Shown: one piece after another, positions 34,601 to 42,693 of the stretch
How the letters are laid out: each line of letters starts with the position of its first letter
Position numbering within the stretch: the first letter of the stretch is position 1
Source: an uncultured Bacteroidales bacterium
GTDB taxonomy: Bacteria; Bacteroidota; Bacteroidia; Bacteroidales; Muribaculaceae
DNA length: 64,000 nt
Reading direction: 5' to 3'
Assembly: GCA_947175575.1 (NCBI GenBank)
Contig: CAMWNG010000002.1
Location: 62,001 to 126,000 of the forward strand
The notes under the pieces: generated by a model
Databases searched by the model: none
Told to the model about the DNA's origin: nothing
Seen by the model: only the letters and a program-made list of their open reading frames with translations
Translations under genes and position numbers: made by a program

Positions 34601-34672
34601 GCCTTTGTAGTTCAATGGATAGAACAAGCCTCTCCTAAAGGTTAGATAGGGGTTCGATTCCCCTCGGAGGTA
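34601..34672 (+). tRNA. tRNA-Arg(CCT)
   Basis: Cloverleaf: GCCTTTG/CGGAGGT acceptor, GTTC/GAAC D-stem, anticodon loop CTCCTAA (CCT), GGGGTTCGATTCCCC T-arm; CCA not encoded; TAACTTTG box just upstream. Confidence 0.95.
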
Positions 34673-34727
34673 CAATCAGCCGGTCCGGACTCTGACTTGT
34701 CGGGGTCGGTAAATTTGTTTTTAAGAC

Positions 34728-37010
34728 ATGAAACACGCACTTCTCTCACTCCTCGGGGCAGCCGCGTTTGCCGCTCCCCTTTCAGCGCAGATTGTGTCGA
34801 CCCCGGCCTACAAATGGCAGGGCGACAGTATAATACAAGGAAAGTATAAGGCTTATAGTCCTGACGGTATTAGCCTGATTTCTGACTATTCAGCCCAACC
34901 CGGCTACTTCATGCCCATTGAAAAGGAATGGCATCTTAGCCGCGACCTCGCGGGGTTGCCAAGACTCCATACTCCCAACAAACTCCACGAGGCGGTCTAT
35001 AACCTCGGTCTGGAGGAAATGCTGAACGCGGTGGAGCCGGACACGACCTTGCGGACAGGCAAGGAATGGGCCGGAGTCTGGACCCGCGATGTTTCTTACT
35101 CGATCATTCTCTCGATGGCATGGCTACAGCCTGAAGCTTCTGAAATTTCGCTGAGGCGTAAGGTCTCGCCCACCGGCCGCATCATTCAGGATACTGGAAG
35201 CGGAGGCGCCTGGCCTGTCAGCTCCGACCGTATGATTTGGGCTATAGCCGCCTATGAGCTTTATAAGGTGACCGGCAGCCGCGAATGGCTCGAATACATT
35301 TATCCTATCATTGCGAATTCGATGGAGGATGATCTCAAGGTGCTCTATACCGATGGCGGAATGGTGCGCGGCGAAACATCGTTTATCGACTGGCGCGAGC
35401 AGAGCTATCCGCGCTGGATGCAGACAGCCGATATATTCCGGAGTCAATCGCTCAGTACATCTGTGGTGCATTCGCAGGCTCTTCAGGTGCTCAGCGACAT
35501 AGCCGCCGAACTTGGCTACAAGGAAGCTTCCTCACGCTACGGGACGCTGCGTGACTCTCTTGTCGGACAGATCAACGCGCAGCTGTGGATGCCCTCTAAA
35601 GGCTATTACGCCATGTATGATTATGGCCGCAATTTCCCGATTCTGAATCCGCGTGCGGAATGTCTCGGCGAATCACTCGCGATATTATATAATGTGGCGA
35701 CGCCGGAGCAAGCCGCTTCGATCACAGAGAATTATCCGACAACACCTTTCGGCGCTCCGGTATTCTTCCCCCAGATAGCAGATATGCCTCCGTATCACAA
35801 CAATGCTTTATGGCCCTGGGTGGCCTCCTATTGGGCTCTTGCCAACGCTAAGACCGGTAATGAACTGGGACTGATTGAGGCAATCGGTTCCGTATTCCGT
35901 CCGGCCGCTTTGTTCACCACCAACAAGGAAAACCTGGTCATTGACAATGGTGACATCGCCACCGAACTCAATTCGTCGAATATGCTGTGGTGTCTGGCGG
36001 GCAATCTTGCCATAACACAACGGATACTTTTCGGCATAACATTCACGCCGGACGCCCTCGAATTCCATCCTTTCGTTCCGCAGACCATGGCTGCCGATCG
36101 CAGTCTCACGGATTTCCGCTACCGCGGCGCAACCCTTGATATCCATGTTAGCGGCTACGGTAATGTCATCAAGGAATTCAAACTCGACGGACGCTCCCGG
36201 AGTGCTGAACTTCCCGGAGATATCAAGGGGCATCACAAGGTGGAGATCGTGCTTGCCGACAATACGCCCGAGCCGATGAAAGTGAATCATACAGCGAACG
36301 TGAAAGCGCCGCTCACACCCATAGCACGTCTTAGCCATTCTCCGGAACTGGCAGGAGAAGGTGTGCCCGCGAACAACCTGCTTCAATGGAATCCCATAGA
36401 ATATATACACCATTATGTGGTGCTTCGGAACGGTGAGCGTGTCGGCACCACGCGGCGCACCTCCTGGGATGCGACTATGCCTGGCGAATGGCAGGTTATC
36501 GGTGTGAGTGATGCCGGTGTGGAATCATTCGCCTCCGAGCCACTTGACAATTTCGAAACCATCGTGTTGGAAATGCCCGCTGAGAATGCGTCCATGCTTT
36601 CGCCGGAGGTCAGCTATCAGCCCTCCGAGCCGATTGAGGGATTCCATGGAGCCGGATTTGTCGAACTTGATCACACGTCTGTCCCTGTCGTGACAGATGT
36701 GGATATCCAAACCCCGGGAACATATTCCATATCGCTCGTGTATGCAAACGGCAACGGACCGGTTAACACTGAAAACAAGTGTGCTATCCGTACCATTGAG
36801 GTTGACGGTGTGCCCGCAGGCACAGTGGTAATGCCTCACCGTGGTGTAGCAAACTGGAACGACTGGGGCATGACCAACAGTGTGGCGGTTCCTCTCGCCC
36901 CAGGCACACACCGTATCGGTATCACCTTCCGTCCCGAGAACGAAAACATGAACCTTAATACCAACCACGCGCTCGTTGATCGCGTGATAATCAAAAAAAT
37001 AGGAAAATGA
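34728..37010 (+). CDS. Secreted six-hairpin glycosidase (MGH1/GH63- or debranching-like)
   Basis: Signal peptide; GVWTRDVSYSIILSMAWLQPE; DNGDIATELNSSNMLWCLAGNLA; C-terminal beta-sandwich region. Confidence 0.75.
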   Translation: MKHALLSLLGAAAFAAPLSAQIVSTPAYKWQGDSIIQGKYKAYSPDGISLISDYSAQPGYFMPIEKEWHLSRDLAGLPRLHTPNKLHEAVYNLGLEEMLNAVEPDTTLRTGKEWAGVWTRDVSYSIILSMAWLQPEASEISLRRKVSPTGRIIQDTGSGGAWPVSSDRMIWAIAAYELYKVTGSREWLEYIYPIIANSMEDDLKVLYTDGGMVRGETSFIDWREQSYPRWMQTADIFRSQSLSTSVVHSQALQVLSDIAAELGYKEASSRYGTLRDSLVGQINAQLWMPSKGYYAMYDYGRNFPILNPRAECLGESLAILYNVATPEQAASITENYPTTPFGAPVFFPQIADMPPYHNNALWPWVASYWALANAKTGNELGLIEAIGSVFRPAALFTTNKENLVIDNGDIATELNSSNMLWCLAGNLAITQRILFGITFTPDALEFHPFVPQTMAADRSLTDFRYRGATLDIHVSGYGNVIKEFKLDGRSRSAELPGDIKGHHKVEIVLADNTPEPMKVNHTANVKAPLTPIARLSHSPELAGEGVPANNLLQWNPIEYIHHYVVLRNGERVGTTRRTSWDATMPGEWQVIGVSDAGVESFASEPLDNFETIVLEMPAENASMLSPEVSYQPSEPIEGFHGAGFVELDHTSVPVVTDVDIQTPGTYSISLVYANGNGPVNTENKCAIRTIEVDGVPAGTVVMPHRGVANWNDWGMTNSVAVPLAPGTHRIGITFRPENENMNLNTNHALVDRVIIKKIGK

Positions 37011-37495
37011 AAACTGTATTATCCATTATCGCCGCCATAGCGGTGAGCCTTGCAGCATCCGCGCAGGTGAATATCAGTAAAGTTGACAAAGTATCGCCCA
37101 ACGATGAAATATTCATGGACATGGCCGTAAGCGCGGCACAAAATGCTGTTGAATCCGGACAGAAAGCTAATGGTGCCGTTCTCGTGCTCAACGGGGCATG
37201 GAAAGCTACAGGTCTGCCGGGTGCGAACAATACTCCGGAGGCCGAAGCAATCGCCAAAACCAAACGCACCACCATCCCCGGAGCTGTGATTTTCACTGTA
37301 AACCAACCTACTCCCGCCGCTGTCAACGCTGCCGGAGACGCCGGCATCGAGGCCATTTATTTCGTGAATTCGGCCGATGCCGCAGTGGCCGCAGGAATAT
37401 ATTCCAAATCGGATTACGCCGGCGAGGTGAATCCTGATGTCACCGTGGCCGTGTTGCAGATGACCTACGCTCCTGCCGCCGCACTGCTCAAGTGA
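37007..37495 (+). CDS. Secreted deaminase-fold protein with degenerate zinc site (pseudoenzyme candidate)
   Basis: Signal peptide; IFMDMAVSAAQNAVESGQKANGAVLVLNG...PEAEAIAKTKRTTIPGAVIFTVNQPTPAAVNAAGDAGIEAIYFVNS aligns by eye to tRNA/guanine deaminase motifs with HAE changed to EAE and PCxxC changed to PTPAA; overlaps upstream GH gene by ATGA. Confidence 0.65.
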   Translation: MKTVLSIIAAIAVSLAASAQVNISKVDKVSPNDEIFMDMAVSAAQNAVESGQKANGAVLVLNGAWKATGLPGANNTPEAEAIAKTKRTTIPGAVIFTVNQPTPAAVNAAGDAGIEAIYFVNSADAAVAAGIYSKSDYAGEVNPDVTVAVLQMTYAPAAALLK

Positions 37496-40355: not shown

Positions 40356-41420
40356 TTATAATTTCGGCGATAGGAGCGAATCGAGTATTACGAGTCGTGC
40401 CATGGCCTGTACTACAGGGACTGCCCGGGGTAGGGCGCATACGTCGTGACGGCCCCGCGGTTCGAGAATGGCGATCGAGCCGTCGCGTGCTACAGTCGAT
40501 TGGCTGCGTCCGAGTGTAGGGATAGGTTTGAATCCCACACGGAAGGTGATCGGGGCGCCGTTCGAAATTCCGCCCTGAATACCCCCGGAATGGTTAGTGC
40601 GCAGGGAAATGCCGCCGTGTCCGTCCGGATCGAAAACATCGTTAAGTTCGCTTCCGAGACCGCAACATCCGTCAAACCCCATTCCGTAGTCGAATCCGTG
40701 AGCCGCATTTATGCTCATCATGGCGGCTGCAAGACGTGCGTGCAGTTTCCCATAGATAGGTTCACCGATGCCGGCTGGGAGGCCGGTGATGCGTCCGCCT
40801 ACGATGCCCCCGACCGTATCGCCTTGTGAGGCTACGGAGTGAAGGCAAGCCTCTATGGAATCGGATGTAGGCTTATGAGGACAATACACCGGACTTGACC
40901 ATATATCATCCTGAGAGAAATCGACGAATTCAGACGGTATAGCCTCCGAACCGACTCTCATGGTGAAGGCCGCGCAATCAATTCCGCGCGGGGCGAGTGC
41001 CCATTGGGCTATGGCGCCGGCGGCCACTCGGAGTGAGGTTTCACGAGCTGAGGCGCGTCCACCGCCACGTGGATCAGTGTGACCGTATCGTGCCTGATAG
41101 GTATAATCGGCGTGCGATGGACGGTAAACTGTGGATATGGACTCATAATCCTCGCTCCGGACATCTCTGTTGCGTATTAAGAATGCAATCGGAGCGCCTG
41201 TGGTGATGCCGCGGTAAAGCCCCGACAGAATATCGACTTTGTCCGGTTCTCGTCTTGGAGAGCCGAATTTACCTCCGGGGGCGCGGCGGCGCATCGCTTC
41301 TTCAAGTGTGTCGAAGTCGGCATGGATCCCGGCGGGCATCCCGTCAAGAATGGCGCACATGGCCGGTCCGTGGCTTTCTCCGGCCGTGGTGAGTCGCAAG
41401 TTGATGCCGAAGGTGTTCAT
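40356..41420 (-). CDS. aroC: Chorismate synthase
   Basis: TTAGESHGPAMCAILDGMPAG; YRPSHADYTYQARYGHTDPRGGGRASARET; RGRHDVCALPRAVPVVQAM. Confidence 0.97.
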   Translation of the reverse strand: MNTFGINLRLTTAGESHGPAMCAILDGMPAGIHADFDTLEEAMRRRAPGGKFGSPRREPDKVDILSGLYRGITTGAPIAFLIRNRDVRSEDYESISTVYRPSHADYTYQARYGHTDPRGGGRASARETSLRVAAGAIAQWALAPRGIDCAAFTMRVGSEAIPSEFVDFSQDDIWSSPVYCPHKPTSDSIEACLHSVASQGDTVGGIVGGRITGLPAGIGEPIYGKLHARLAAAMMSINAAHGFDYGMGFDGCCGLGSELNDVFDPDGHGGISLRTNHSGGIQGGISNGAPITFRVGFKPIPTLGRSQSTVARDGSIAILEPRGRHDVCALPRAVPVVQAMARLVILDSLLSPKL

Positions 41421-41920
41421 TCGGGGTCGACGGTAAGGTCAGCCAGCGTACCATGTGTGTATTCGATGAGCTTATCGGGTGCGATGCGCAACTGAAGTCC
41501 ACGCTGACCTGCGCTCACATATATTACATCGAAATCGGTAGCTGTATGATGATAGAACGTAGGAAATGCTTTTTTCATGCCGATCGGCGAGCATCCCCCG
41601 CGGATATATCCTGTCAGCCCAAGCAGGTCTTTCATGTGGAGAAGCTCCACTTTTTTGTACCCCGCCGTGCGGGCGGCTTTCTTGAGGTCGATCTCGCAGT
41701 TGCCCGGTACCACGCACACGAAAAAGTCATGCGGGCCGGCTGTCAGTACGATGGTCTTGAATACCTGTTCGATCGGTTCGCCGAGCTGTTCGGCCACATG
41801 CTCGGCTGCAAGATTATTCTCGTCCACCTCATATGGCACGAGATCGTATGCTATGCGGGCTCGGTCAAGCAGGCGCGCGGCATTTGTCTTGGCAGGACCT
41901 TCGGGCTGTCGGCGGCTCAT
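41417..41920 (-). CDS. ybaK: Cys-tRNA(Pro)/Cys-tRNA(Cys) deacylase YbaK/EbsC
   Basis: TNAARLLDRARIAYDLVPYEV; VFKTIVLTAGPHDFFVCVVPGNCEIDLKKAA; GCSPIGMKKAFPTF. Confidence 0.93.
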   Translation of the reverse strand: MSRRQPEGPAKTNAARLLDRARIAYDLVPYEVDENNLAAEHVAEQLGEPIEQVFKTIVLTAGPHDFFVCVVPGNCEIDLKKAARTAGYKKVELLHMKDLLGLTGYIRGGCSPIGMKKAFPTFYHHTATDFDVIYVSAGQRGLQLRIAPDKLIEYTHGTLADLTVDPE

Positions 41921-42693
41921 TGAGGGTCGTAGATAGAGTTGAGTACATGAGCCAGGCGCAGACCTGCACGAAGCAACTGCTGTTCGATGACCGGAGTCCA
42001 TCGCGCGATGTGATTATAGCTTACCCGCATCCCTGGCTGGAAATAAACATACACCTGTTTGGCGATGCCGTATGTCTCCTTGCCCCACGATTCTGGGTTG
42101 CCTTCGGTTATCACCACGATTTCTTCGGGAGTGGCACGGTCAATCTGTTGCTGCCATTCGGTGTAGCTCCATTTGTGACCCGATTCGAGGATGTTCGAGT
42201 CCCAGATGTGGTGAAGATTGGTTTCGTTGTTGAAGAATTTGAGTTTTACCTTGTTGCCACCGAGGTCGCTCAGTCGGCCCATATGCATGGGCTGATGCAG
42301 GTCGCCCATGCAGTGCGCGAGAATCTTCATCGCCAGAGCCGACTGTTCCGGCGTCAGCGTGGAATCGCGCAACAGCGAAATCTGTTCGGCCACAGCGCGT
42401 GTCACATCTCCTTTCTCGTTGCGGGGCATGCTTTCGTATGTCTCCATCGCGTCGATATTGCGGTAATGCCAGGTCTTGGTGTATGCGTAATCGCTGTTGT
42501 GCGAGGCATTGTCAAGCCAGTTGGCCCAGTAAACCATCGATTTGCCATCCAGAATCGAGTCGACGGCGGCGCGCGTACGTTCTGTCAGGTGTTGTTCGGC
42601 TATATATGCTGTGACATCATGGCCCTTCTGGCTCCAAGCCGAGGCCGAGAGTGTTGCTGCGAGTGCTATTGCGGAAAGAAAGAGATGCTTCAT
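41917..42693 (-). CDS. S1/P1 nuclease, secreted
   Basis: SAWSQKGHDVTAYIAEQHL; LAHCMGDLHQPMHMGRLSDLGGNKVKLKFFNNETNLHHIWDS. Confidence 0.95.
   Translation of the reverse strand: MKHLFLSAIALAATLSASAWSQKGHDVTAYIAEQHLTERTRAAVDSILDGKSMVYWANWLDNASHNSDYAYTKTWHYRNIDAMETYESMPRNEKGDVTRAVAEQISLLRDSTLTPEQSALAMKILAHCMGDLHQPMHMGRLSDLGGNKVKLKFFNNETNLHHIWDSNILESGHKWSYTEWQQQIDRATPEEIVVITEGNPESWGKETYGIAKQVYVYFQPGMRVSYNHIARWTPVIEQQLLRAGLRLAHVLNSIYDPQ

Follow-up and report, generated by a model that had tools for sequence, protein, structure and literature searches.

Which role can be left to a small protein that resembles a deaminase and begins like an exported one, and does the glycosidase-like protein encoded directly upstream have a part in it? 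This question is raised by a gene in the window, i.e. the whole stretch of 64,000 nucleotides of a Muribaculaceae genome (107 contigs, 91.8% complete) that was analysed here.

Export-type N-terminus and deaminase fold

The N-terminus of the protein, MKTVLSIIAAIAVSLAASA followed by Q, consists of a charged and a hydrophobic part and ends in AASA before this Q, and the signal peptide proposed in an earlier note on this DNA was therefore recovered as a signal-peptide-like segment, judged from composition (charge, hydropathy and end motif). By the same composition rules, such an N-terminus is found in all 29 aligned homologues, in which the N-terminal 10-residue hydropathy maximum lies between 2.1 and 3.3, as opposed to −1.0 to 1.5 in canonical guanine deaminases (GuaD), so that the family does not fit the cytosolic location of GuaD. 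We dropped a reading as lipoprotein, since a conserved Cys at position +1 is absent. The overlap of the start codon with the glycosidase stop codon, which had likewise been pointed out before, is present (Table 1).

Table 1 Features of the pseudoenzyme locus in the window.
Feature	Position	Strand	Basis or remarks
Glycosidase-like exported protein with (alpha/alpha)6 fold of the GH78/GH94 type and a CBM6-like C-terminus	34728..37010	+	Pfam, AF2, Foldseek
Secreted deaminase-fold pseudoenzyme, GuaD relative	37007..37495	+	162 aa, intact ORF
ATGA overlap, glycosidase stop/pseudoenzyme start	37007..37010	+	sequence
Signal-peptide-like segment, aa 1-20	37007..37066	+	charged start, hydrophobic core, A-x-A end followed by Q, no lipobox Cys
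TPEAE (aa 76-80), what is left of the HAE zinc/catalytic segment	37232..37246	+	no His; a shorter loop ahead of it and a short helix
Former PCxxC loop, aa 96-106 FTVNQPTPAAV	37292..37324	+	family consensus YTVNEPTTEAY; both Cys lost, new form strongly conserved

Although the Pfam family dCMP_cyt_deam_1 matches the window pseudoenzyme alone with an E-value of only 0.0056, it matches 24 of the 29 homologues, the best of them at 5e-9. A profile built from the 29 homologues and compared with the PDB found the guanine deaminase of Bacillus subtilis (1wkq) as best match (E 5e-11), with the tRNA adenosine deaminases ranking below it, and the alignment runs nearly end to end (profile positions 32-159 of 167). 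The AF2 model predicted from the alignment (pLDDT 88, pTM 0.81) has helices and strands alternating as expected; a Foldseek search with this model returned 131 PDB chains at E<0.001, of which the best 50 are all deaminase-fold, with guanosine deaminase of Arabidopsis at the top (E 4.5e-9), and 1wkq_B superposes on the model with 1.6 Å over 113 columns. The homology to deaminases thus exceeds chance, and the deaminase-like pattern described in the earlier note is borne out by Pfam on the homologues, the family profile, AF2 and Foldseek.

Loss of the active site and probable descent from GuaD

In enzymes of the guanosine deaminase (GSDA) type, zinc is bound by His80, Cys110 and Cys113, Glu82 acts as general base and the C-terminal Tyr185 caps the site (PMC9739398). 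The window pseudoenzyme contains neither a His nor a Cys over its whole length, and all three zinc ligands are consequently gone, as had been proposed. At the PCxxC site, which reads PTPAA in the window, the first Cys is replaced by T, Q or S and the second by A, V, D, S or T in 31 of 31 aligned homologues, while a His at the HAE site is found in 0 of 29. The L-INS-i alignment is gapped at this latter site, and we fixed the register from the downstream A-I match and the helix start, which places HAEVNAI on T76-P77-E78-A79-E80-A81-I82. From this we conclude that the previously suggested change of HAE to EAE was right about the loss of His but not about the register, since an exchange of H for T (TPEAE), not of H for E, fits better; for the window pseudoenzyme this ambiguity is immaterial, because there is no His or Cys anywhere in the protein.

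The claim that the position of the catalytic Glu remains did not hold as a property of the family. Glu occupies the catalytic column in 16 of the 29 homologues, the rest having V, A or I, and the alternative column of the earlier note in three of 29; the Glu of the window pseudoenzyme is therefore not to be taken as a retained active site, and we dropped the idea of a meaningful retention. The losses extend to substrate binding: the equivalents of GuaD Asn42, Trp92 and Asp114 as well as the C-terminal capping Tyr are missing in all 31 aligned homologues, that of Phe26 is kept in a single one of the 31 (GuaD residue numbers were counted by us on the B. subtilis sequence), and the loop plus helix that bears Asn42 and HAE in GuaD is shorter by about 10 residues. 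Ligand loss and signal-peptide-like N-terminus are thus common to all aligned homologues.

Our family search covered 198 Muribaculaceae genomes, with 30 genera sampled, and yielded 30 full-length secreted homologues in six of these genera (g1, g5, g10, g12, g14 and g29); the weaker matches that we examined are canonical GuaDs. In an order-wide search of 393 genomes, matches outside Muribaculaceae reached at most 72 bits and the best 28 of them all retain HAE and PCxxC, so the pseudoenzyme is confined to Muribaculaceae so far. The 31 pseudoenzyme sequences form one clade (SH-aLRT 98-99) on a stem as long as 2.6 changes per column, and its exact sister group among the GuaDs is uncertain; a tree joining them with the GuaDs of Muribaculaceae lies 7.7 log units above the free search and is not rejected (p-AU 0.68).

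Twelve of the 30 genomes, all from genera g5 and g14, have the start of the pseudoenzyme gene only about 1-30 bp past the stop codon of an intact guaD, which suggests a tandem duplication. The simplest history would therefore be that guaD was copied in tandem and that the copy was then exported and ceased to be catalytic. Many loci further share a downstream block of a radical SAM gene, aroC and ybaK; in the window, aroC and ybaK-like genes, recognised by inspection of their translations, lie 3 kb downstream (40356-42001).

A GuaD with intact HAE and PCPMC in another Bacteroidales family (f28; G431:C67:38943-39494, minus strand; L101/L149) has a signal-peptide-like start, MKRFAIIFALLAVVRICTA followed by Q, and the same genome encodes a second GuaD without such an N-terminus. 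Judged from these sequences, this is apparently a separate export of a still intact GuaD.

Gene neighbours, selection and alternative readings

A descent from GuaD and the 12 loci in which guaD lies close by could point to a periplasmic binding protein for purines (guanine or a nucleoside), which would feed or sense the substrate of cytosolic GuaD. However, the purine-contacting residues, i.e. the equivalents of Asn42, Phe26, Trp92 and Asp114 and the capping Tyr (for the role of the Tyr see PMC9739398), have all been replaced, and no guaD was found in about half of the carriers of the pseudoenzyme, including the source genome, though incomplete genomes could hide some guaD or glycosidase genes. 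Only four of the 13 carriers in the genus of the window have a match of GuaD grade, and a PF00383 search of the source genome returned TadA, dCMP deaminase, a match in a 361-residue frame read as RibD and a cytidine deaminase of the tetrameric type, but no GuaD. We consider a purine binder of this kind unlikely. With guaD not found in so many carriers, we rejected an obligate accessory of GuaD.

The strongest constraint on the pseudoenzyme is on the remodelled former zinc loop, YTVNEPT, together with the alpha1/beta1 region. Among 134 eight-residue stretches of the mature protein, aa 96-103 of this loop (consensus YTVNEPTT) rank second in conservation, and the stretch that was once HAE belongs to the least conserved ones. 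The conservation of the loop could be purely structural, for example by helix capping, which is a reservation about our preferred reading below. It might also indicate that the protein is an active enzyme after export, whose remodelled site works by a new mechanism without metal. FdhD and AICAR transformylase, in which the deaminase fold carries out other chemistries although the HAE/PCxxC zinc site is missing, would serve as precedents. Nevertheless, the pocket region offers no invariant acid, base or nucleophile, the only invariant residues of the family being A19, M39, A40, G56, P101 and Y137. Moreover, 12 of the 29 homologues (e.g. L043, L046 and L051) have one Cys at residue 55 and another at residue 110 (numbering of the window pseudoenzyme), usually the sole two of the mature protein, in the columns of GuaD Phe26 and Tyr91; going by their placement, we regard a periplasmic disulfide across the dead site as likely in this subgroup, which also argues against the metal-free enzyme. 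This reading is accordingly rather improbable.

The earlier note had interpreted the protein as a partner of the glycosidase. The glycosidase-like protein has only weak matches in Pfam, to Bac_rhamnosid6H (2.4e-8) and MGH1-like, with CBM_6 below the cut-off, and no sequence relative at E<0.001 was found in the PDB; Foldseek matches are to GH94 and GH78, but since the AF2 model is poor (pLDDT 65), we assign the family only as GH78/GH94-like (alpha/alpha)6. Across the genus of the window, this protein is 56-71% identical. A dedicated partner, i.e. a ligand-binding subunit or chaperone of the glycosidase produced by translational coupling, would be consistent with the ATGA overlap and with the glycosidase gene directly upstream in seven of the 13 carriers of the genus (G000, the source genome, G593 (= L001), G088, G115, G601, G195 and G596), five of them close-packed. 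However, only some members of a single genus show this adjacency. Among the 49 genomes of this genus, the pseudoenzyme occurs in 13 and the glycosidase in 34; the glycosidase is also present in 23 of the 36 genomes that lack the pseudoenzyme, and the co-occurrence of the two is not significant (Fisher p 0.29). In G615, G613 and G598, tilS (Pfam-confirmed in G615 and G613) replaces the glycosidase gene directly upstream, with no glycosidase gene between, and in G615 the tilS-pseudoenzyme junction is an ATGA overlap as well; in G601, G088 and G115 the order is tilS-glycosidase-pseudoenzyme. In the homologues of other genera, no glycosidase gene was seen directly upstream, and the upstream gene in 12 of those loci is guaD. 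Because tilS takes the same upstream place and the co-occurrence is not significant, we conclude that the ATGA overlap is a consequence of how compact the locus is, not of an evolved partnership, and we give the coupled glycosidase partner very little credence, slightly less than a metal-free enzyme.

As a further observation at this locus, a tRNA-Arg(CCT) gene flanks the glycosidase-pseudoenzyme block in the window (34601-34673, plus strand) and in L037 (7946-8018, minus strand). Its 3' end faces the block in both, from opposite sides, as if block or tRNA gene had been inverted; it was not seen beside the block in the other scanned loci of the genus.

A decaying guaD pseudogene, which the loss of the entire active site might bring to mind, is ruled out for practical purposes by frames intact in about 30 genomes of six genera and by a pairwise omega of 0.02-0.08 (0.024-0.079) for the mature part between close orthologues (YN00, pairs with estimable dS), with the new motif and the signal peptide conserved in addition. 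This range of omega means that a function is retained. With the ligand loss shared and the selection strongly purifying, neither of the objections that the earlier note had anticipated, a fold unlike that of deaminases or homologues that keep HAE and PCxxC, therefore applies.

Probable role and comparison with known systems

An export signal, the loss of the metal and catalytic site and a gene that is nevertheless kept intact together indicate a probable non-enzymatic job outside the cytoplasm. We thus favour, as a quite probable reading of these sequences, an exported non-catalytic relative of GuaD that arose by tandem duplication and would work by binding or as a structural dimer, independently of both the glycosidase and guaD. 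From the earlier interpretation, the repurposed, secreted and zinc-less deaminase-fold pseudoenzyme stands, given the shared loss and the purifying selection, but the glycosidase as its partner does not. In the proposed course of events, guaD would have been duplicated in tandem and the downstream copy would have gained a Sec signal peptide; the fold of the exported copy would then have been kept, whereas its zinc ligands and substrate residues, a part of the HAE loop and helix and the C-terminal capping tail would have disappeared. The present protein is probably dimeric and may act in the periplasm or outside the cell, either structurally or by binding a small ligand or another protein, presumably without hydrolytic deamination, and the former zinc loop and the alpha1/beta1 surface would be the first candidate sites for a partner or ligand. 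More tentatively, and with somewhat less than even chances in our view, the dead guanine deaminase site would have been rebuilt into a binding site around the YTVNEPT loop, which would make the family a new, Muribaculaceae-specific class of small periplasmic binding proteins.

If our preferred reading is correct, the family represents a clean natural case of a cytosolic enzyme that was copied in tandem, exported, deprived of catalysis and kept under selection, with apparent intermediates still visible, namely guaD beside the pseudoenzyme gene, carriers without guaD and an exported intact GuaD in another Bacteroidales family. It would also give the deaminase superfamily an exported zinc-less group, and it singles out a conserved, uncharacterised secreted protein in Muribaculaceae, a dominant family of the mouse gut. 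We found nothing relevant on a secreted or inactive bacterial deaminase family in the open-licence literature.

Among known systems, FdhD, AICAR transformylase and TM1506/DUF1893 share a deaminase-like fold without zinc site; these are cytosolic and represent ancient separate lineages. The pseudoenzyme family has no Pfam match to any of them, whereas GuaD still matches by sequence. With GuaD of B. subtilis (1wkq/1tiy), it has in common the fold, the near end-to-end sequence match, the linkage to intact guaD in 12 loci, a conserved Glu-Pro that precedes the position of the first Cys, the FIY segment's Tyr and the GAV strand. It differs in the absence of HAE, PCxxC, Asn42, Phe26, Trp92, Asp114 and the C-terminal K-I-E-Y tail, in the shortened loop and helix, and in the presence of a signal peptide and of an extended N-terminus with the conserved sequence ITKVDKVxPxDE. 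ADAT3, of the ADAT2/ADAT3 tRNA deaminase, is likewise a non-catalytic TadA-type deaminase paralogue retained by selection, but it keeps its zinc and forms a heterodimer with the active subunit in the same compartment, whereas the pseudoenzyme has no zinc site and carries an export signal that GuaD lacks. Arabidopsis GSDA (7dbf/7dc9), finally, is the top structural match of the pseudoenzyme and differs from it in that the zinc ligands His80, Cys110 and Cys113 as well as Glu82 and Tyr185 (PMC9739398) are all missing in the pseudoenzyme.
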